In this document: positions 13,959-33,745 of the stretch, piece after piece | Layout of the letters: every line of letters starts with the position of its first letter | How positions within the stretch are numbered: position 1 is the first letter of the stretch | Source of the DNA: Rhizophlyctis rosea | Lineage: Eukaryota > Chytridiomycota > Chytridiomycetes > Rhizophlyctidales > Rhizophlyctidaceae | Direction: 5' to 3' | DNA: 64,000 bases | NCBI GenBank assembly: GCA_027596075.1 | Contig: JADGJC010000022.1 | Span: forward strand, 1 to 64,000 | The notes under the pieces: generated by a model | The model's database searches: none | The model's input: the letters and a program-made list of their open reading frames with translations, nothing else | Told to the model about the DNA's origin: nothing | Made by a program: the position numbers and the translations under genes

Positions 13959-15803
13959 TCATGCAATCATAGGCGGCATAATAGCCGCACTGACACCCCC
14001 ACGTCCCAAATTCCGCCATCGGTCCTCTCCACCAGCTGCAGTGGCCCCGGTACTCTGCCTAACAGGCATCGACACCGCACCCGGCGGCGTCGCGTCGATT
14101 TTGCAGAGTGGGCATTCGGAGGATTGTTTTGTTAGCCATTGGTCTGTGAAGGAATGGGACGAGGTGAATTGTTAGATTTTGAGTGANNNNNNNNNNCCCC
14201 CCCCCCCCCAAAAAAAAAAAAAAAAAAAACCCCCCCCCCCCCCCCCCCCCCTCGCGCCGCCCAAACCCCGAAAAACACACACTCCCACACCCCGCGGACG
14301 GAAAAAAAAACAATTCCTACTCACCAATACATTCACAATGAAACGCATGCCCACACCCCAACTCCCTCAACATCTCCCCATCCTCGTATTCACAAAGACA
14401 CACCGCACACGTCTCACTGCTAACCCCGCTCCCCTCAACAGTCCTCACACTCGCCACAGAACATATACTAACATTCGCCGACCCTTCCTTCACTTCCTCC
14501 GGCAAACGGGGGAACTGTACCGACCGTCGCGAGGTGGTGGAGATGATGGAGACGTTTGCGGAACCTTCTTTTACTTCTTCGGGGAGACGGGGGTATTGGA
14601 TGGAGCGGGTGGAGATGACGGAGACGTTTGCGGAGCCTTCTTTTACTTCGTCGGGGAGGCGGGGGAAGGTTGCGACGAGGCGGGGGGAGATGGGTGTTGG
14701 GGGGTCGGGGTCCGCGACGGATGTGGAGGTGGGGATGCGGGGTAGTGGTGGGCGGGGGGAGGCGGGGGAATCGGCTGATGGTGCGATGTCGGTGGTGGAT
14801 ATCGGCAAGATTGGTTTCAACTTTTCCGGTTTCTTAAACCTGAATCTACTCCCCCTTTTCGATTTTGCCTTCTTCGCGGCTGCTGCGGCCGCTTTGCTGT
14901 ACTTCCTCGTGGGGAGCATGTTCAAATACTGCGGATCAATAACCTTCTTCTGTTCCGCTTCTGTTGTTGCTCCTTCGTGGGGTGTCAGGTACATGACGTC
15001 CACGTTATCAGTGCCGTACCGTTCTCGGAGCATAGACATGTGGAAGTGCATTCCCACGCTTGCTATACATGATATGACGAGGAGGGCGACGACAAGGATA
15101 AGGATGTTGCGCCAGAAAGGCGACGGGCCGTTGTCTGGCACGGGTTGGATTTGGACCGTGACAGAGTCGCCGGATTGGAGGGAGGTGGTGAGGGATTGTC
15201 CAATGTCGTTGGGGAGGTTGACGATGGTGTAGGTGGAGTTGATGGATTGGGGGAAAGAGTTGCTGGAGTCATAGTAGAAGAGGGCGGAAGGTTGTGGATC
15301 TAGCGTTTGGATATTTGAGAGTTGAGTGGGAATGTTGCAAGCGGATGGTTTTAGGAGTAGGAAGGCGACGTAGGAGAGGGGTCTGGAGGAGGGAATTGAG
15401 ACGGATTTGACAGCTGATGGATCGCATCCGGTGTCATAGTATAATATCGGACCCTAATGGCCTTCGCGTCAAGTTTCTGTTATGTTCAATGATACCCCGT
15501 CCAGCGTTTCCCGTACGTACCGTAAAACCATCGCCAATGTCTCGTGACCCATCAACGGTCTGCAGCGGTTGGTTCGATGATACTCCTTTCCCCGGGAAAG
15601 TCAGCTGCACAGATGTAGATGCTGCCACATAGCTACTAGCGCTGAGTACTAATGCCGCTGTTGCCAATACATTGGACAGTCTGAGCCGACTTGCTCGCCT
15701 CCGTGAACAACTTTGTCTGCGACAGGACAGGGAGGATATGGGTGTCAGTTGGAGTGACCGTGTGAACAAAAGTGCACAAGTGATCACGCCCATACCTTGT
15801 CAT
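13959..15803 (-). CDS. PA-TM-RING ubiquitin ligase (RNF13/GRAIL type)
   Basis: A membrane E3 ligase of the endosome/secretory system by family. Exons on the minus strand: 15803-15796 (8 nt), 15716-15521, 15453-14325 and 14143-13959, totalling 1518 nt (505 aa). Order: signal-anchor region (SNVLATAALVLSASS), a lumenal PA-like domain (VQLTFPGKGVS ... FFYYDSSN-like block), a membrane segment (NILILVVALLVISCIASVGM), a basic Lys/Ala stretch, three copies of a FPRLPEEVKEGSANVS-type repeat, then a C-terminal RING-H2: CAVCLCEYEDGE, GCGHAFHCECI, DQWLTKQSSECPLC. The RING is completed only by splicing across the intron that holds the assembly gap, so the gap probably does not remove coding sequence. The tiny first exon is inferred from frame and signal-peptide logic. 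RING and membrane segment are certain; the PA label rests on architecture. Confidence 0.85.
14187..14251. other. assembly gap flanked by homopolymer runs
   Basis: Ten N bases are followed by a run of C, a run of A and another run of C. It lies inside the last intron of the RING gene. The homopolymers look like low-quality sequence at a contig end. Confidence 0.8.
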
Positions 15804-16912
15804 CGTCTCCGAACAGTGAATACGATACGTCGGTATCAATATGAGTCTCACAACTATCTTTTTTTCTTAATTCGAGGGAGGTTTGGAGGTTGATGAGATG
15901 CGACACACACTTGTTAGTGTGAGGCGATGGGCGGTAATGGGTGAAACTTGTATTTAGCGGAGAGAAGAACCAGGTTGAGAAAAAGGGAAGCAGTTGGTTG
16001 CCTTCAATGAGAAGCTCTCACCGACGCTTGGAGGGTCATATCAGTCACCCGAGCCTGATGGTGCGTGGAGGGAGAAATCTGCCCTTACCCCACAGCTCAT
16101 TTTCCTGATTCCTGCTCAATCACTGGTCAATGCATTGCAGAGCCGCAGATGCGGATAGCGGGAATCTCACTTGCTCCGATCTCCGTCTGACTGACAAGTG
16201 TCCACGGTCGGTTCGATTGGTCGGCCGCGCGAAAATGGGCCCAGGCAATCAACCTCGACTGGCCTGAGTGGAAGACGGTTGTGGGCGGAAGAATCTGTGA
16301 CCAACTGGAAAGGTTGGGTCCCTTCCCAATGATTGACATACAAAGTCAAATCAGTGCGGCACCGTCCACTACCGCATGAAGTCATGAATAATCCGCTGTT
16401 TGATTGGATAAATGGTCAACAGTCAAATCAACTTGATGTCATTGACAAGTGCTAGACCAGTGGGAAAAGTGAGACAGTCAAAAGGGACCATGTTGAGCCT
16501 CCGGTCCATTTCGGACCCATTTCTCGGAGGGATGTCCCATGACCTCCTTTGCTTGTTCGGCTCTTTGGTATGACTGTAAATCCTGTATCCAAGAACCGAA
16601 GATGGATTTTTGAAAAGCCGAAAACCGCGCCCATCACGTGTCAGTGTGTGACATCTCCCCCATTTCAAAAGGGTTTCATTACAATGTGGCCAATGGCTTG
16701 TGGAAATCCAAGCCACCACAACACACAACGTCACTCATCCACTGGCTCATCCACAATTTCCAGATTCCCCAAAAATATAATAAATAACCCTTCCCGTTCC
16801 CACCCATCGTCCGAACACATCGTATGGAAAAACAAAGCTGTAGACTTTTCATATTCGAGGTGTAACATTCTTGTCTTAGAAGCGGCAAGCGAGGCACTTG
16901 TCCCGGTGTAAA
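15804..16912. other. divergent intergenic stretch
   Basis: This is the 5' flank of both the RING gene (minus) and the F-box/WD40 gene (plus). A TATA-like AAAAATATAATAAATAA near 16772-16788 lies about 130 bp before the plus-strand ATG. No other feature was recognised. Confidence 0.4.
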
Positions 16913-18977: not shown

Positions 18978-20428
18978 CTACACCGTTCTTCGTACCCTCC
19001 TTCCCCGCAACGTACATATTTTCCTTTCTTCCTCGTTCTGCCAAACCTTCACATGCACCGTAGGAATCTGCAGTTCTTCACTCAATTCCACCGCATCCTT
19101 CTGAATAACAGCAAGCGGCCCCCTCCTCACGTTGATGCAAACTTCCTTCAAAGCAGGACACCCGACCAGATTTGCCCGCATCGTGGAATACTTCCAGAAT
19201 AGGACCGTCGCGTGCAACGTCTGCACTTTGCCTGGGATATGGGAGAGGGTATAACCGACGTCATCGCTTGGATGGGAGATGATCTCGTCGCCCAGTTGTA
19301 AGGTGCGGAGATTATGTAGCTGGGATAGGAACGGCTGTGCTAGGTCCGCAATCTGGTTTTCGTTCGAATCGTCTAAGGAAATGATGGTCACGGAAGTGAG
19401 CTGTCGGCAGATGGTTGGTGAGAGTGCCAGTTGGCGAAGCGGGCCCGGCGTCTGTCCTTTCCACCCGAAATGACGGAGGGTGGGTTGCGTCAGAGTTTTC
19501 AGTTGCGGCATTGGCGAGAACGGGTGTTCGACCTTGATTTCGAGAGATTCCAAATTGGGCAAGGAGACGGCCCAATCGTCGAAGAGGATGTATGGAGTCG
19601 TTGTCAAAGTCTGTAGTGACTTGAACAAGATATTGGCAGGAATGGAAAAACGAATTGGATCACGCTCATGGGTTGATGGAAACTCGAGAATCAACTCGCG
19701 TAGCGGGGCGTTCTGTAGGTGACAGAGGAATTTCCAGAGGATGCAAGCCTCGTCGAGATTGTAGGCAGGAGGTTGCTGGAATTTGAGCGTTCGCATCTGC
19801 AAAGGACGCTTGCATGCCGCTTTGACAAACTCTCTTGACACCGCAGCAGTGATCCCACTGTCGACTACCGTCCCTTGTTTGTCGTCAATTTGGAAATGGT
19901 GGAGTTGACTCAGATCAACTGCTAGCAACGTTTTATATACCGAGAACGCATTGAAGAGCTGATTTTTGGTTTTGTCGGAGGAGAGGAAGCTGAGTGTTCG
20001 CACCCATTTGACGCGACAGGGGTCATCAAAGAAGACGTCGTAAGCAAAGCCGTCTGCCCCGCCAGGACAGCTTGGGCAAGGCGGCTTGCAAAGGGAGCGC
20101 GGAACGTAGCTGCTGACATCGAGGCAGTTACCCTGTCGTAGCTCAAGGGCGGTGGCACGGAACGTTTTGCACACTAATGAGCCATTAGCACGAGGGAGAA
20201 ATTTGGCAGAGTTCTTTCTGCTCATCTCATACCTTGCGCCAAAAGCACCTCATAAGGCAACCCGTCATCTTCCTTCCTGTGAACCGGCGAAGCTTCAAGT
20301 GGGACTTTCATCACAGGACCCGCAAGCGGTTGGATGTACTCGAAGATGTCGAAGAGAACGTGTTCGGGTATGGCGGTGATGTAGCAAAAAGGAGCGGTGC
20401 CACTGTGGTCTGGGCTGGTGTTTTGCAT
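18978..20428 (-). CDS. F-box protein with leucine-rich C-terminal region
   Basis: Probable SCF adaptor of the F-box/LRR kind. Minus-strand exons 20428-20233 and 20173-18978 join to 463 aa; the intron is GTATGA...ATTAG. The F-box is split by the intron: TAIPEHVLFDIFEYIQPLAG in exon 1, then VCKTFRATALELRQ in exon 2. Irregular leucine-rich segments follow: APLRELILEFPS, LPNLESLEIKV, LKTLTQPTLRHFGWKG, LHNLRTLQLGDEI and CPALKEVCINVRRG, a pattern common in fungal F-box/LRR-like proteins. The start MQNTSPDH is the ATG nearest the F-box; an in-frame ATG farther upstream would add a basic extension. Long open frames on the opposite strand here are shadows. Confidence 0.82.
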
Positions 20429-23035: not shown

Positions 23036-26000
23036 TTATGCTTTCACTACATTTTTCTCTTGATCGGAGGAGACGTTGCGGAGCTTTTCGTGGGAAGACA
23101 GTGAAGACACTGGAGGTGGTTTGTTGAATCCAGAAGTTGCGGGAGCGCTTTCGCGACTTATTGTGGTGGTGGTTGATCCCCGTCTTTTGAGGGCAGAGAT
23201 GTTGATCAATTTGAAGCTGATGAGGAGGGTCACGGTTGCGACTGCTGGGAGGATGTTTGCGGCATGCCGGATGGCGAAGGATGCGGTGGGGTCCGGAATG
23301 GCGAATTGGGCGATCAGGCTGAGGCCGGCACCAAAAATGATCCTTTTGAAAAAACAAAAATATCACTAACATGTTCAACCGAAATAGGTGCGCTGCGAAA
23401 GACCAACCAGTTGTACATTGACAAACCAATGAACTTGCTTTCATTGTACGTGGAAGCGACATCGCGAATCTGGAACGCCAGGGAGGTGACATATATCACC
23501 GCGATGACGCGCCCCATGACCGCCACAATGTCGAAAGGAGAAGTAGAGCATAGTCCTACGCTAATGTAGGAATCCAACGTAATGCGATCCTCCTCATTAG
23601 GCCTACACACGACCGTCCACACAATCAGAAACACAAGGACCGGGACTAATCCCGCCGCCATCCTCAGCCCCAACACCTTATCCGTAATAGCCCGAACCTG
23701 CGCCGACTTCGTGGACTCCAAGAAAATGTTTTTGATCCTACTAGTCTTCACTAAAAGCGCCAGCACGATGAGGAAGAACCCAACGTTGACGAGCCAAACC
23801 TCCATTGTGCACATCTCACCGCGTTTCGACAACATCAATGCCGACCCTAAAACCGCTATGATAGCCCCGATATTGATAATCGTCAAAAACACAAATGAGT
23901 TTCCCTTGACGATTTGATGGCGACGACACTGTACCAGTCCTGCTAAAGATATACCGAGATATGCCAAAGCCACCACCGCTATGATTCCGATCACGGTTTG
24001 GACAGAGTCGTCCACGGGCACCTCTTCCAAGCAGGCTCCCCGATTTTGCACAAGCGTAAACTTGTGACCTTCGGGGCAGTCGGCGATAGTCAGTGCGAAG
24101 GACGGGTATGGGTATGCGCTGTCTTGGTTGATGGCTGTTGCGACCAAGGGAGTGATGGAGACAGTATAGGTACCGGGCATTTTTGCGTTATCCGCTAGAG
24201 CTCGGAAACTCGCAACGCCATCGGTTGTCACAACGGCCTGCACTTCCTGTATAGAGGTACCAGTTGGATCGGTGAGGTTTAGCATCAGTATCAAGATGTT
24301 CTCGGGGTCGACGTAGCTGGATCGGTTGTACTGATCAGATGCGACGCTGGTGATGATTGGGGCAACCTCTCCTACGGCCATGATTGACGGTATGGTTGCA
24401 TTCATCAGCACTTTCGTGTAGGGAGAGATTGGAGGCTCGGAGGTCAAGTTGGTGAAGCTCTCGGACAATTTACTAGCAATGTTAAGCGATGTCACGAACG
24501 TGGTCCCCTCGATGAGCGGGTTGATCAGCATGTTGACTTTGACTTTGTAAGAGTCGAAGCAAATCGACCCCTTGGGTCCGATATTGTTGATGATTTGGAC
24601 GTTATTCCCAACAAAATTCAAGGTGCAGTTTGTGCAGGAGGAATCGAAGTACCTGATTGTATGTTGCAGACATGATTAGCGGGACAAATATAGAGTCAGA
24701 GGTTCTGTCCAGCATGCTCTCTTTCACTTACACGGCGCTACCACAACCGGTTGCAGAGCTACCTTGAGCATATACATTGTCTCCCAAGGTTAGAGTCGCA
24801 GCATTGTCAAGGCTAAATGCTCCACCCATCCCACTCTGACAATTCGTGAAAGTGGACCCACTGATTGTCATGAGAGTACTACCCAATACTTTAATGCATC
24901 CTCCGTTTGTAAGTGTGCTGCCAGAGTCGAAAACTGAGTTGGTGATGACTGCTGAAGTGGTGTCCTGCAATTTCAGAATCCCGCCCTCTCCTATGCTAAG
25001 TATGGACTGCGCGAGCGTAAAATTGGAATTCTTGATTGTGATAGTGGAAGTAGTGCCGCCGAAGATTACTCCACCGTCATTGATTGCACTCGAGTTGTAA
25101 ACGGTGCAATTGACAATCGAAACTGTGTTGCTGCCTCGCACGCCTGTTGGGAAATAAAAACTTGGTCAACCGATTCCATGCTGGATTTTCCCTTTCAATG
25201 CATTTAACTCACGCATGAATCCGCCGTTCGTTCCAGCCATTGAATCCGAACTGAAGCAATTCTCAATCGTTAAAATACCACTAGTGTCGAGGTAAATTGC
25301 GCCAGAATCCCGATATGCTATTGAATCTTGAGCTATCCAGTTGCGGAAAGTGGAGCTTCCCTTGAAATAACCAACGCCTCCGGAACTCGATGTTGTAGAA
25401 CGGATTGTTTGAAGCCCGTCTTTTATGAGAAGGCATAAGGGATGTGGTAAAAAGGGAAAAAAAGATACCTGGCCACCTGCTCACCTGCATAGAGTATACC
25501 GCCCGATAACTGGCAGAATGCCCCACCGATTTCTCCAAAAGAATCTGAGCATCGTAAGATTCGAACGCGAATTGAGCTTGACGCATGCTCCACAACCGGA
25601 TTCTCCATCGTCCGACTTCGCAACATTGTTGAAGCAACCACCGCCATTCCACGTAACTTTGTTGTAATTCGTTTTGGCCGAGCTGATTCCTAGTCCGCAT
25701 CCTCCAGCAAAGGTATTGCCTCGAGGGCTGTAGCACGTGCTGTTCGAAATGGTAACGTTGATCAGGGTTGCCGTCAAATTGCCCACGAGACCGCCGAGTG
25801 CGATTGGTCCAGAATAGCCGCCCACGTAGCCATCAAAGGAGACGTTCATCATTGTGACGGACGAATCGTTCGCCATGAACACGCCGTAGATATCATTTCC
25901 TGCCGAAAACCACATGTCATGTTTGGTCAAACATCGGGAAGACGAGGCTGCATTTATTGGTGATAATTACCGGGTTGTGGTGACAGAAAGGCGACGTTAT

Positions 26001-26241
26001 TCAGAATTGCCGTGGTGCGATTAAAGTACACCCACGGGCATCCCACGAACGCGCAGTTGTTGATGGTGACGGCAGGTGCCAAGTTGTAAATAAGCGGAGT
26101 GTGAGTCAAGTCGCAATAGAAGATCTCATTGGGAGGACATCCCGCGAACCAGTCGCTGGCCGCTCCGACAATACTAATGGTCGATGAGAAGGCAAACACG
26201 AATGAGCAAAGCACAACCCGCAGATCCCGGCTTAATTTCAT
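23036..26241 (-). CDS. beta-helix ectodomain/class C GPCR-like receptor, copy 1
   Basis: Predicted cell-surface receptor. Minus-strand exons: 26241-25971, 25899-25597, 25544-25485, 25419-25213, 25143-24732, 24652-23408 and 23342-23036, totalling 2805 nt (934 aa). A signal peptide (VVLCSFVFAFSSTISIVGAA) precedes about 400 residues of right-handed beta-helix repeats resembling chlamydial Pmp repeats (NGGGCFNN, GGAFCQLSGG, NGGCIKVLGSTLMTISGSTF, GMGGAFSLDNAATLTLGDNV). An all-beta linker and a short Cys motif (CPEGHKF...GACLE) follow. Seven helices begin near residue 637 (VIGIIAVVALAYLGISLAGL); helix 5 contains KFIGLSMYNW, typical of class C receptors. A Ser/Thr-rich tail ends it. The 52-nt intron 25545-25596 (GTTGTG donor) restores frame; without it there is a one-base shift. 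The last intron uses a GTTGGT donor. The ligand and G-protein coupling are unknown. Confidence 0.85.
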
Positions 26242-26782
26242 CGTTGCTGGAGGTTGTTTCGTTGAATCTTTGATAGAAGAAGTCTGAGCTCGCGATAGGT
26301 GCATGTAATATACACATGCTTACTTTAAATGATGTTGAACTTTCTGGATTGCACTGGTCAGTGATCTCATCACAGATAGAAGGACCAGTAACGCAGTGAT
26401 GCAAACAATAAACATTGCGGCTGGTACAACTGTTTTGTTTGGTGCTGGGCATTTGCCGGGTGTTGTGATTGGGATACCCTGGGATTTGCGTTGCCATTGT
26501 GGCGAGGATACTCATGAATGATTCGGTTCAAAAACATCCTCCCTCCACACAGTCATTAAGGTTGACTCGCATTGTTCAACTTTCCACCTGAAATTCACCC
26601 AAACATCCGGAATCACGAGGGTTCTGGGGGATGCGACGCAAGGTTTTCTTTATGTAGTCAATACAGCGCGACTCTGATGAAGCCATGACCCTAGTTGACC
26701 TCTACTTGCAGAAACGATCGTACATTTCATTTAAACCTCACCGCACTCCACATCTGGTTTTTCTCCTCGGAAGTTGAACAAA
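26242..26782. promoter_or_regulatory. shared divergent promoter of the receptor pair
   Basis: 541 bp separate the start codons of two head-to-head paralogous receptor genes, so both promoters must lie here or overlap. No specific operator was recognised. Shared regulation is an inference from orientation. Confidence 0.5.
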
Positions 26783-29700
26783 ATGAAACGGGTCATTTTC
26801 AGGACACTTGGGAGGCTTCTCGCCCTATGTGCGCTTCTTAGCGTAGTCTCTGCAGCCCCTGCACCCCCTACCTGGTTCACAAGCTGCGTAGCGAACACCA
26901 CATACACCTGTGTCAGTGCTGACACGGATCTCACCTTTACGACCGACGTAATCGTTCAAGGTTGTACATTTGTAAATTGCCCCTCCGTAACCTTCAATGG
27001 AGGGAACGTCGTTTTGCAAGATGTGGCATATTTGTACCCAATCCTGTCAGCAGCGAAAACTGTCAGCATTTCAACTACGCCGGGAACTGTCGTCAATTGG
27101 CAAAACGTAACCTTTGGCCACGTCAGCTATGCGAGCGCAAAGCGGCTTCTCGATATAGCCGGGACGACTGGCACCTTCAATGGCATCAACATATACAACA
27201 TTACGGTTGATCCCAAATCGGTTTTGGGCATCGCATACATTATCTCATCCAACATTACTTGTATCAACTGCAACGTGAACAACACAACGTCCACAACATT
27301 CTTACTCAACGGCGCATCCTTCCAGTGGCTTGGGGGAAGCTGCTCTAACAGCCAAAGTACACTGGCCGGTGTCTGTACCAACGCTGTCACTAGTAATTTG
27401 ACCCTCCAAGATATTGTAGCGTACGGGTTGCTTGCCAGCAATACCAATGGTGGGGGGTTGACTTATGCATTGCGTTCGGCCGTCATTGGGCAAAACCTCA
27501 CCATAACCCAATCAACTGGTACCAACCTGATCGCATTCCTCTCCACCTCCTCGTTGTCACTCAACAATGTGCTCGTTGATACCATTTCCCCAATCGGTTC
27601 GAGCTGCGCTATCAGAAGCGACTTTGGTTGCCCAGTCACGATTAACAATGCGGTTGTACGCAACTGCAAAGGTGGCGCCCCTTTCGTTGCTTCGCCCCGC
27701 TCCTTCTGGGATGTATCAAACACCCTTGTTGAGTATTGTGGCGGTGGATTTGCTGTTACTTCCACGGCACCGGTAAGGATAAAGATACCACAAGTGAAAT
27801 ATCTATTTGCCAGACTGATTTGATCGTATCACAGCAAGAACGTGTCGGGACTATCTATCTCAGAAATGGCGTCGTTGTTCGATCGAACACGGCCCTGCAA
27901 GGGATATTGTCTACTGATTATGGTTCCAAAATGATCATAGAAGGTAACTGATCTAAATTCTCCCAAGGTTCTATGCACCGAAGATCTTGCTAACGCTGCT
28001 CCTGACAATTTTTTTGTAACAGACGTTTTGGTTTACAACAATTCTGTCACGAGACAGGGCGTCATTTGGAATTATGCGGGGAGGATGTTGATACAAGGCC
28101 AAACAATCATAGCCAGCAACAGTGCACGCAACTATGGCGGCGCACTGGCGTCGAATGGCAAAGGGGCTGTCAATGTTATATCAGGCTCGGTTAGAATTGT
28201 GAACAACACCGCTGGCGTCGGTAAGCAATGACCTTTTGAAAACTGGTGCCATCCGATCCACTGAATTGTACATGCAGCCGGTGGTGCTTTGCACATGCAA
28301 TCGAACAGCAGGCTCACGCTGGTAGGGGATTCAGTTGAACTTTCGAATAATAGTGCACCAATGGGAGGTGGGATATACATGATGGCGGACGCCGCCAACT
28401 TCAGTGTGCAACCAGTTGTATCCGGGCCAATCGTCAACGACAACGTATGGATCGATTCGACTATCTTGTTCAAACAGGTCCAGCCGGCATTGCGATCGTT
28501 GCAGGGCGCGCCGCCGGTGAGATCAAGGGCGACACATCTGGAATGGAGCAACAAACCCGCCGCTCTCAACCAGAACTTCCCTCCTGGTGCTGCTCTTCCC
28601 GCCTTCTCAGTGGTAGCCCTCGACGCCGTGAACAATCCAGCATATCTAGACCTTCAACGCCCTGTCATCCTCAGCCTGTCCATGCCCACCGCCACCTTGA
28701 TGGGTGCAACCCAAAAGGCGATCCTAAATACTACGTCCCACGTCACTTTCGACAACTTGATTTTGAACGCCCCCATCGGTGAGCACCAACTCACCATAGC
28801 AGCGGTTTATGAAAGTATGGATGTAGATCAGGCTATCGTCTGGCCCAATGTCACCATCACCGTCGAAGCATGCCCGTACGGAACACGATTCAACAATGCC
28901 ACATCGACCTGCGCCAAAGTTTACAAAGTCACTGACACCTCGCGTATCGCCTTTGCGACAGCGAGCGCCATCGGCATTGCCATCGCCATTACCTGCGCGG
29001 CTACCCTCTACCTATACCAGAGCGCGGCCATCATCGCGAAAAACCAGCCACGCTTTCAATACATGATCGCTGCCGGTTCCGTAATCAGTCTCGCTTCCAT
29101 CATCAGCAGTGCGACTCCACACCGCTTTTCCTGCAAGCTTCCCCGCTGGCTTCACACCTTTGGAGTATTTGCTAGCGCCCTGGCACTCATTTACAAAATC
29201 ACCGCCCTCGGTACGGCCTCACTTGAAGCCGAGGTGGCCGATGAACAGATGCTGGTGCGTGAAACATCAAAAAAGAACAGAAAAGAAAAGGCGGAAAAGT
29301 ACAGATCCGTCCGAGAAAACGCAACGTTCAAAAACGCAACCGTCAATATACCCATCATCTTGACCGCCCATCGTCGTCGGGCTAGTCGCCTCCAGTATCG
29401 CCGAACCGTCCTTTACCATTGACCTCGTTCAAATCAAAAACTACTTTGTCATCAACCACTGCCCCACCACACGCTCCCAAACCGCCTTCACTATCCTAAG
29501 AGCCATCATAATAGCCGTGGCTTCTTACCTTGTTTTCGCTGGCCGGAAGCGACCTAGCCCCTTTGCTGAAGCCTCCTTCAATCTGTTTTCTGCCTACAAC
29601 ATGCTCGTCTTCGAGGTCGTGTTGTACATCATCGCCGACTTTGCCATAGCCGACGTGAGCATCTCCTTCATCCTGACCCAGCTGTCCGTCTTGATCTCAA

Positions 29701-29891
29701 ATGTAGTGTTAGTGTTGTTGTTGCCGGGGTGGAAGGTTGCCAGCGTGGCAAGCGGGAAGGGCTTAGTGGGCACGGGATCGAAGAGTGATCCCGAGAGCGC
29801 TTCTTTCTCAAACCCTCGCAAAGGTTCCTCTGGCACTATAGGAGGTGGTTCCGCGACCGGGACGAGACGCGGATCGGATCCGAAACTTTAA
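26783..29891 (+). CDS. beta-helix ectodomain/class C GPCR-like receptor, copy 2, with frameshift
   Basis: Paralogue of the minus-strand gene. Exons: 26783-27772, 27835-27943, 28023-28220 and 28278-29891. Signal peptide LLALCALLSVVSAAPAP, then a beta-helix beginning TWFTSCVANTTYTC and TFVNCPSVTFNGGNVVLQDV, which aligns with DWFAGC and AFVGCPWVYFNRTTAILNNV of the other copy. Pmp-like turns include NYGGALASNGKGAVNV and MGGGIYMMADA. The Cys motif CPYGTRFNNATSTCAK precedes helix 1 (FATASAIGIAIAITCAATLY). The long basic loop KKNRKEKAEKY leads to helix 4, where the frame breaks: at CCC 29367-29369 one C too many separates NIPIILTA from IVVGLVASSIAEPSF. Helices 5-7 then read well (FAEASFNLFSAYNMLVFEVV). 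Either the assembly has an error or this copy is a young pseudogene. If intact it would be 969 aa. Confidence 0.8.
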
Positions 29892-31367: not shown

Positions 31368-33745
31368 ATGAAGATCTTTTCACTCTTGAGTTTGTTTGTA
31401 GTGTTGGGCTTCAGTAACCCAGCACTCGCCGCATGGGGCCTACTTGACGATGGTGTGAACGATTTTTTCGTCGACACGGGCTCTCTCTTCTTACTTTCAA
31501 CGTCTCGAGGTGCAACTTGCCGTCTAGTCCCTTTTCAAAAAAAGGATCGTATCTCTAACCGCTACATACACACAGGTCAAACGGCAACATCACCTCAGTC
31601 ATCTACAACGGCATCGAAATTCAAACTCCAGACATGTCAAAACCCAGCGCCATCAATTCCGGCTTTGGCTCATCCCAAGTCACAGCCGAAACGATCGGCA
31701 CGGACTATATCAAACTCACTGTCCAAAACTCTACATCCGCGCCGAACCTGATTCATTACTATGTGGCAAAGAAAGGGGACAATATGATCTACATGGCAAC
31801 ATATGTTACTGCTGCATACGTTGAATTGCGGATGCTCATGAGGCTTGCAACTCCTGTTGTGCCAACGGGCCCCCTGTGGGACGAGCAATCGCCCATGCTG
31901 ACAAAGATCCCGAGCGGGAGTGGATACCTTGAACCGGTATCGGATGTAAGAAATGGTACCGTGGTCGAAGGTCAGGATGTTTTCCTTGTCGGCAACGAGA
32001 CGAGGTCCAAATTTTATTCATCCGAACGTTTCATTGATGATCTGGTGAGTGGTGTGAGCGGGTACACCATTTTTCTTCCATCTTCTTATGCGGAAGATCT
32101 CTAAGTGCATGGAGTCACAGGTGCCGGCATTGGTGCATGGTATGTGAAGCCTGGCACTGCGTACGAAACGGCCTCGGGAGGACCTTTCATGCGCGATATC
32201 AACGACCAGGTGACAGCCAACCAGCATGCACAACATCAATTCGAAAGCAATCATTGTGTCAGCTTTGACATGACTTCTGGCTGAATTTCCCAAAGGTACA
32301 TGTTTTCAGGTCACTTACCGACGGAACCCGCCCGGCTGGGATTGAATGGGCCCATTGCGTTTGTCGTTACGAACGGCAGTGTGCCATCCGCGCAACTGGA
32401 CACAAGTTTTTTCGAGAATCTCAATATTACTGGCTATGTTCGGACATCCGACATCCGGTCGTGGCTACGTTCAGGGCACGACGGCAGGAGTTCAATGCGT
32501 AGGTATTGGAGCTTAAACCCTAAGTGATCCGGTTGTTGAAATGTGCCGAATACCTTACCACAGAATTGCGAAACGGTGCTGCACTGGTACAATCCAAGTG
32601 CTCAATATTGGACCAAAGGCACCAACGAAATATATACATCTCCCGCTATGAAACCTGGTCAGTAGGCGATTGACACCTGAGAATGACTTTCTTTCAGGAT
32701 GTCCAACAACTCATTGATTTCTGTAGGCACATACACAGTCAAAATGTATCGGAACGAGTTTCCAGTCTATACTGGAAGTGTTGCTATCACAGCAGGGCAA
32801 ACAATCGCTCAGAACATCACTTCGTCGGAGGCGAATCGCACAAATCTGTTCCAAATCGGTATGACACAAATTTCATATCTTGTAGCGTATTGAGTACTAG
32901 ACATTTGATCGTTATGAAAACCCGTTTCAGGCAACATTGACGGTCAACCCTTCGAGCTCAAAAATGGGAATAAATTCCTCCGTATGCACCCATCCGACGC
33001 TCGCATGGGCAATTTCACCGCCAATTACGTTGTGGGAGCAAACAACGCTACCGACTTCCCCATGGCACTTTTCAAATACATCACGCCCCCAACCATCAGT
33101 TTCGACCTCGCCGCCATTCCACCTAATGCCACTCTATACATTTCTACGACCGCTGCGTTTCAAGGGGGCAGGCCACTAGTCAAGATCAATACCAATACAT
33201 TTACTGCACCCCCCGCGCCAACAAATCTCAACTCGAGGTCCGTCACGCGTGGAGCGTATAGAGGGTTAGGCGAGCAGTATAATTGGAACCTTCAACCTTA
33301 TCTGATCGCCGGGACCAATGTGTTGACTATTGACGTAGCGAGTGGGAGCAGCGGCTCGGGCTTCCTCGCGCCCAATTACATTATCGATGCCATTTAGGTC
33401 GAGGCGCCTACGGGGACGCTGGTGTCGCCCCCTCCAGCTGGTGCATGCAAGCTCTATCAACCTCCTGCCACTACAACTCCGACCGTCACGTCTACAACCA
33501 CTTCTGGAGGCAGCGGCCCAATGTCGACAGTCGGTTCAACATCCGTTGCCGCAACTACTTCCATCACCACAACCAATGCTCCGACATCGACAGTTTCCAC
33601 CACATCCGTGAGCGACCAAACTTCAAGTTCTCCGACCCCCACTACATCTGCCACCCCTACCAGTACTGGCAGCGGCGGAAGCAGAATACGCTCGTCATGG
33701 CTCCTGTGGCTACTTGTCGTCATCGTGCCCATTCTTCTCCTGTAA
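31368..33745 (+). pseudogene. rhamnogalacturonan lyase (PL4), apparently inactivated
   Basis: The ancestral product was a secreted enzyme cleaving the rhamnogalacturonan backbone of pectin. It starts with a signal peptide (FSLLSLFVVLGFSNPALAAW). PL4 landmarks in order: SNGNITSVIYNGIEIQTP, FYSSERFIDD, GAGIGAWYVKPGTAYETASG, YMFSGHLPTEPARLGLNGPI, VLHWYNPSAQYWTK, YTSPAMKPGTYTVKMYRNE and FLRMHPSDARMGNF. Lesions: the 7-mer GACATCC is duplicated in tandem at 32443-32456, shifting the frame inside GYVRTSGRGYVQGTTAGVQC; the junctions near 32044/32105 and 32209/32297 do not join in frame with GT-AG sites; and an in-frame TAG at 33395-33397 separates the lyase from a Ser/Thr-rich stalk and hydrophobic tail (SSWLLWLLVVIVPILLL), which look like a GPI or membrane anchor. 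Each alone could be an assembly error or special splicing; together they indicate decay. Confidence 0.8.

Follow-up and report, generated by a model that had tools for sequence, protein, structure and literature searches.

A 64,000-nucleotide window of the genome of Rhizophlyctis rosea, a chytrid of the order Rhizophlyctidales (assembly GCA_027596075.1, contig JADGJC010000022.1, positions 1 to 64,000), carries two paralogous receptor genes, here called A and B, which lie head to head on the minus and plus strands. Both products run from an ectodomain through an all-beta linker and a short cysteine motif to a class C seven-helix domain, and their ectodomains, judged from sequence, are very probably beta-helices. 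Assignment of the seven-helix domain to class C is strongly supported for A and moderately for B, whereas the beta-helix evidence is firmer for A and weaker for B. The fusion of a beta-helix to class C helices is already described from gut fungi (2016; PMC5168858, available text). What appears to be new, as far as our search of the open-licence literature shows, is its presence in Rhizophlyctis and in the ichthyosporean Chromosphaera.

The Pfam family 7tm_3 matched A with 94 bits and the first piece of B with 35 bits (gathering score 33.5), and the fold of this part, as modelled for A, is that of a class C seven-helix domain. In a column alignment, both proteins keep the cysteine pair of helix 3 and outer loop 2, the helix-3 lysine and the helix-6 glutamate, residues that have functional roles in class C receptors. 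The best sequence matches in the PDB were GPR158/GPR179 and the metabotropic glutamate (mGlu) receptors, which share the class C bundle and these same residues with A and B. Their ectodomains differ, being of the Cache-EGF type or composed of ANF and nine-cysteine domains in the animal proteins (PMC12716839, main text). An earlier note on this DNA, made from the letters alone, had recognised a CPxGxxF...C motif in both proteins, and it is indeed present as CPEGHKF..C in A and CPYGTRF..C in B; the nine-cysteine domain NCD3G gave no match in either at E 1, leaving CPxG..C only. The note's class C assignment holds as well, but the motif that it had placed in the fifth helix (from residue 453 of the deposited protein P0001, described below) sits in the sixth helix (451-476) of the structure model.

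The gene models bear out the earlier description of two paralogues on opposite strands with starts 541 bp apart, the start codons being at 26241 (minus) and 26783 (plus). Gene A extends to 23036 in seven exons separated by six introns of 52-79 nt, with a predicted product of 934 aa. Gene B comprises four exons, with introns of 41, 79 and 57 nt, that encode 802 residues up to helix 4 (Table 1). From the N-terminus as far as helix 3, the two proteins can be aligned collinearly (24% identity, E 3e-23). Each starts with a hydrophobic segment, so that the proposed signal peptides are supported to the extent that hydropathy can show. The ectodomain parts counted contain 15 cysteines and 10 N-glycosylation sequons in A, and 12 and 11, respectively, in B. 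The deposited R. rosea protein P0001 (HDV00_004422, 563 aa) was 100% identical over the searched region, with the linker and seven-helix part of A as query, and equals the last 563 residues of our model; it therefore backs introns 5 and 6 of gene A, and no others. Intron 2, at the exon 2/3 junction with its weak donor GTTGTG, was placed by frame and coil continuity and is a prediction.

P0001 begins late, lacking the first 371 residues of the A model and thus most of the ectodomain. Together with the weak splice site, this would be expected if the ectodomain and the helices belonged to separate genes that had been joined by an artefact of modelling. We consider such an artefact very unlikely, because the single open frame of A exon 6 runs from the last coil through the linker and helices 1-5 into helix 6, and because a homologue, P0006, holds both parts in a single 1035-aa frame. 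The coils of B are likewise continuous with helix 3 in one open frame, and the collinearity of A and B argues against separate genes as well.

Two profile searches for homologues returned 3 and 19 further class C proteins. These searches were shallow, with about 8000 candidates scored in each of three; the one yielding 19 proteins missed P0004 and P0001 although both were in its query, and the misaligned first-piece row of B was excluded from the query alignment of one of them. Like A and B, the proteins P0003, P0004, P0005, P0006, P0008 and P0009 each carry, on a single chain, beta-helix or PMP-like repeats, a linker and a class C bundle. The clearest case is P0006 (Beta_helix 1.5e-26, Chlam_PMP 3.7e-14, 7tm_3 1.3e-45). 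In P0008 and P0009, both with 7tm_3, Beta_helix lay just above and just below the cut-off, respectively. PMP repeats were just above the cut-off in P0004 (21.0 vs 20.6 bits; 7tm_3 1.6e-49) and below it in P0003 (7tm_3 4.4e-46), and P0005, for which Pfam shows 7tm_3 only, was assigned to the beta-helix type by its similarity to P0003. P0003 and P0004 are 25-26% identical to A in the matched part. The name of P0004 (Nk52_evm54s485) has the Nk52 form of gene names in the ichthyosporean Chromosphaera perkinsii and so fits that species (PMC6981761, available text). ANF domains are present in five of the 19 proteins from the larger search (P0017-P0021), including one from the fungus Mortierella alpina. 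A metagenomic 7tm_3 protein, P0015, bears the name NADH:ubiquinone oxidoreductase subunit 6, probably a mislabel.

We read the ectodomains of A and B as beta-helices because of the repeat motifs in A, the profile matches to these relatives and the collinear alignment of the two proteins. Two repeat motifs occur 11 times each in A, whereas none of 1000 shuffles had more than 8 of either. When the ectodomains of P0003, P0005 and P0006, of which one is Pfam-positive for a beta-helix, were combined into a profile, it scored 17.1 bits in A, 19.0 in B and 77.1 in P0004, compared with 6.9 for the best of 200 shuffles; two flytrap ectodomains were absent among the matches listed, down to E about 7.8. 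The matches fall within the coils (residues 261-429 of A and 359-479 of B), while the linker alone gave no profile match to the relatives. GGA.. and NxxF-like repeat motifs are also found in Chlamydia Pmp and other right-handed beta-helix repeat proteins. Chlamydia Pmp are bacterial surface proteins and, unlike A and B, have no seven-helix part. The Pmp-like beta-helix proposed in the earlier note is supported, more weakly for B, by the motifs of A, the profile and the relatives, but not by Pfam matches in A or B.

Several observations weigh against this reading. No beta-helix family of Pfam exceeded its cut-off in the ectodomain of A or B; Chlam_PMP fell below it in B (E 0.33) and was not listed for A. 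The repeat motifs were picked after inspection of the A and B sequences, and their counts in B (6 and 6) lie within those of its shuffles (maxima 10 and 8). The profile score of A includes a large composition correction (bias 34), and when the same profile was applied to single reading frames of 31 loci, the threshold was reached in A only, not in B. A PDB sequence search with the A ectodomain found no beta-helix at E 10, and P0006 as a query on the R. rosea genome matched A only from the linker onward and missed B entirely. Single-sequence AlphaFold2 prediction of B exon 1 was unusable, at a predicted local distance difference test (pLDDT) score of 44.6. Foldseek matches to that low-confidence model included polysaccharide lyases among the first, and this likeness was set aside because every E-value was 0.55 or more. 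Of the ectodomain coils, the structure model of P0001, built with four further alignment rows (P0003, P0004 and the two B pieces), covers just the last, with pLDDT values of about 43-52. The N-terminal halves of the ectodomains are the less certain part.

In the published text on three anaerobic gut fungi, Seppala et al. counted 107 class C receptors (Table 2 of that paper), around 30% of them with a pectin-lyase fold and none with an ANF domain (PMC5168858). The pectin-lyase receptors combine class C helices with that fold, which replaces the Venus flytrap and in some cases comes with parallel beta-helix repeats. The fusion that the earlier note called unusual is therefore so by comparison with animals, but not with fungi. 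We draw this likeness from the published description rather than from the gut-fungal sequences; A shares the class C domain and the one-chain arrangement, its beta-helix fold being predicted from sequence only. The present pair differs in lineage and accounts for only 2 of the 46 class C loci of its genome. Exchange of ectodomains in this class was also reported for chytrids and Allomyces, where Krishnan et al. (2012) described receptors with ectodomains of the periplasmic-binding-protein clan (14 in Spizellomyces and 78 in Allomyces); the types named in the available text do not include a beta-helix (PMC3251606). According to the accessible text of a 2025 survey, class C receptors are enriched in Blastocladiomycota and Chytridiomycota (PMC12842992), and a 2025 eLife survey reports holomycotan receptors with diverse ectodomains, its main text containing none of the beta-helix, PMP or pectin terms searched for (PMC12716839).

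On balance, we lean towards the explanation that the beta-helix is exposed at the cell surface, where it binds an extended ligand, for example a polysaccharide of the plant cell wall. The resulting change would pass through the linker and the short CPxG..C segment into the seven-helix bundle; a heterotrimeric G protein activated by the bundle might then guide the zoospore or rhizoid. G-alpha matches above cut-off were found on six contigs, so a signalling partner is available. Carbohydrate sensing, as a putative function of A and B, is plausible. A different role, which we regard as rather unlikely, would be that of an adhesive tether, the receptors fastening the cell to its substrate and signalling contact or pull as adhesion receptors do, instead of sensing soluble ligands. 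PMP-like and pectin-lyase-like helices act as adhesins or passenger domains in bacteria, and the sequons of both ectodomains, as well as the lack of any flytrap match in the genome, would suit a tether. The bundle of A, however, belongs to class C and not to the adhesion class, and no cleavage (GAIN) domain was matched in A or B at E 1. At the same threshold, neither ANF_receptor (the Venus flytrap) nor any polysaccharide lyase family of Pfam matched A or B.

For B, the surface-sensor explanation meets two further difficulties. Its reading frame shifts inside helix 4 (after 29365), a break that the earlier note leaves unmentioned and for which a search by eye found no intron, and most of the helix-3 KTxRI motif is gone. 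B is possibly broken, and an account in which A alone works as a receptor while B is a decaying copy seems to us a possibility of some substance, if not the probable one. Apart from the frame change and the eroded motif, the 7tm_3 match of B is much weaker than that of A, and no B protein was among the homologues returned by searches that were shallow and never used the first piece of B as main query. Decay is harder to reconcile with the rest of the gene: given three predicted introns, no further disruption occurs across about 977 codons, third-position GC is 0.58 and 0.66 in the two pieces of B vs 0.59 in A, the cysteine pair, helix-3 lysine and helix-6 glutamate are retained, and one assembly indel would account for the frame change. 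Alternatively, A and B might be co-regulated from the shared 541-bp region and form an obligate heterodimer in which B does not couple, an arrangement like that of the GABA-B receptor. Animal class C receptors are dimers, and the head-to-head arrangement would agree with such a pairing, as would a B protein that has lost most of KTxRI and has a second inner loop that is longer by eye, with its core landmarks kept. With the frame change of B standing against it, we rate a heterodimer as improbable.

Profile searches across the R. rosea assembly (44.1 Mb, 634 contigs) yielded at least 65 exon-level 7tm_3 matches, which were grouped by hand into 46 loci. At least 39 of these share one other ectodomain family, recognised by a profile grown from the R. 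rosea class C loci themselves; A and B make up the beta-helix type, and five loci are unassigned. Among the 44 loci besides A and B, 29 were inspected and 25 carry the shared ectodomain at E 0.01, the other four (L014, L020, L023 and L030) matching neither it nor a beta-helix. Of the 15 remaining, all except the locus on C64 have a shared-ectodomain match (E 0.0013 or better) just upstream of the seven-helix domain on the same strand. By eye, the shared ectodomain resembled a bacterial solute-binding protein, a candidate rejected after no match was obtained to SBP_bac_8, to Pfam (pieces of three loci) or to the PDB (one piece). An exon-wise search of the whole genome found no ANF_receptor at E 0.01. 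No further beta-helix ectodomain was found at the 7tm_3 loci with A, B, P0006, PF13229 or PF02415, a weak negative in that P0006 missed the ectodomains of A and B too. In L014, helix 1 is preceded by a weak EGF-like match (E 0.013), and the C-terminal tail is long. The shared ectodomain also has matches on C216, C194, C466 and C473, where no 7tm_3 match is listed, in what may be undetected receptors or soluble relatives. On C139, two class C loci lie tail to tail within 5 kb, at 15395-15934 (+) and 19601-19837 (-).

A gene for a family 4 polysaccharide lyase, rhamnogalacturonan lyase B (window 31571-33394, plus strand), adjoins the pair, its first matched exon beginning 1.7 kb past the stop codon of B; the domains matched were RhgB_N (1.1e-37 and 1.8e-11) and a CBM-like domain (4.9e-27). 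The genome has four rhamnogalacturonan lyase loci, and a second of these lies 13.6 kb from a class C locus on C290 (166762-167233 and 180832-181646). Random placement would put two of the four within 14 kb of a class C locus with a probability near 0.005, for a pattern that was noticed post hoc. The proximity is a lead only, and as support for polysaccharide sensing the adjoining gene is circumstantial.

In a tree of the seven-helix domains, for which 22 of 40 rows were kept after those covering less than 60% of columns had been dropped, the best topology places the beta-helix receptors on one side, with a support of 31 (IQ-TREE) and 0.78 (FastTree). The approximately unbiased (AU) test did not reject an alternative in which A and B group with the remaining Rhizophlyctis receptors (p 0.31). 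Because the grouping is poorly supported and the alternative topology stands, one ancient origin of the beta-helix receptors is possible and a single origin is not established. A broader account would make these receptors one subfamily that predates the split of fungi and animals, disappeared from animals and recognises polymeric ligands on surfaces, with the Rhizophlyctis pair as a two-subunit pectin sensor beside its rhamnogalacturonan lyase gene; we give this combination an outside chance.

Table 1. Coordinates of the receptor gene pair in the window
Feature	Positions	Strand	Basis or remark
Gene A exon 1: signal-peptide-like segment and N-terminal ectodomain cap	25971..26241	-	gene model; hydrophobic residues 9-27
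Gene A exon 2: ectodomain	25597..25899	-	gene model; donor of next intron (GTTGTG) non-consensus, predicted
Gene A exon 3: ectodomain	25485..25544	-	gene model
Gene A exon 4: ectodomain, residues about 212-280; profile-matched coils begin	25213..25419	-	profile match A 261-429
Gene A exon 5: beta-helix-like coils, residues about 281-417	24732..25143	-	gene model and profile match
Gene A exon 6: final coil, all-beta linker, CPEGHKF..C, helices 1-5, start of helix 6	23408..24652	-	7tm_3 E 1.5e-26; structure model
Gene A exon 7: remaining helix 6, helix 7, Ser/Thr-rich tail, stop	23036..23342	-	junction identical in deposited P0001
Intergenic region between both start codons	26242..26782		541 bp
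Gene B exon 1 (330 residues): signal-peptide-like segment, N-terminal portion of ectodomain	26783..27772	+	gene model
Gene B exon 2: ectodomain	27814..27943	+	gene model; alternative acceptor 21 nt later possible
Gene B exon 3: beta-helix-like coils	28023..28220	+	gene model; profile match B 359-479
Gene B exon 4: final coils, all-beta linker, CPYGTRF..C, helices 1-3, beginning of helix 4	28278..29365	+	7tm_3 E 1.5e-8
Gene B, continued in a different reading frame: remainder of helix 4, helices 5-7, tail, stop	29367..29891	+	7tm_3 E 1.6e-5, 25.2 bits, below gathering score 33.5

Elsewhere in the window, the first residues of an open frame at 14176-14742 (plus strand) are undefined (XXXX), and a low-complexity run comes next; an assembly gap is the probable cause.

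The open text of a 2021 gut-fungus paper speculates that class C receptors bind sugar polymers or mediate contact with methanogens, so that cell-wall sensing has already been voiced as an idea for these fungi (PMC8665504). Our analysis indicates that beta-helix class C receptors are not peculiar to rumen fungi, as they are also present in a chytrid living free in soil and in a single-celled relative of animals. With this wider range, the age of the fusion and its ligand become testable. If the ligand is a plant polysaccharide, early fungi would have coupled the sensing of cell walls to G-protein signalling through such receptors.
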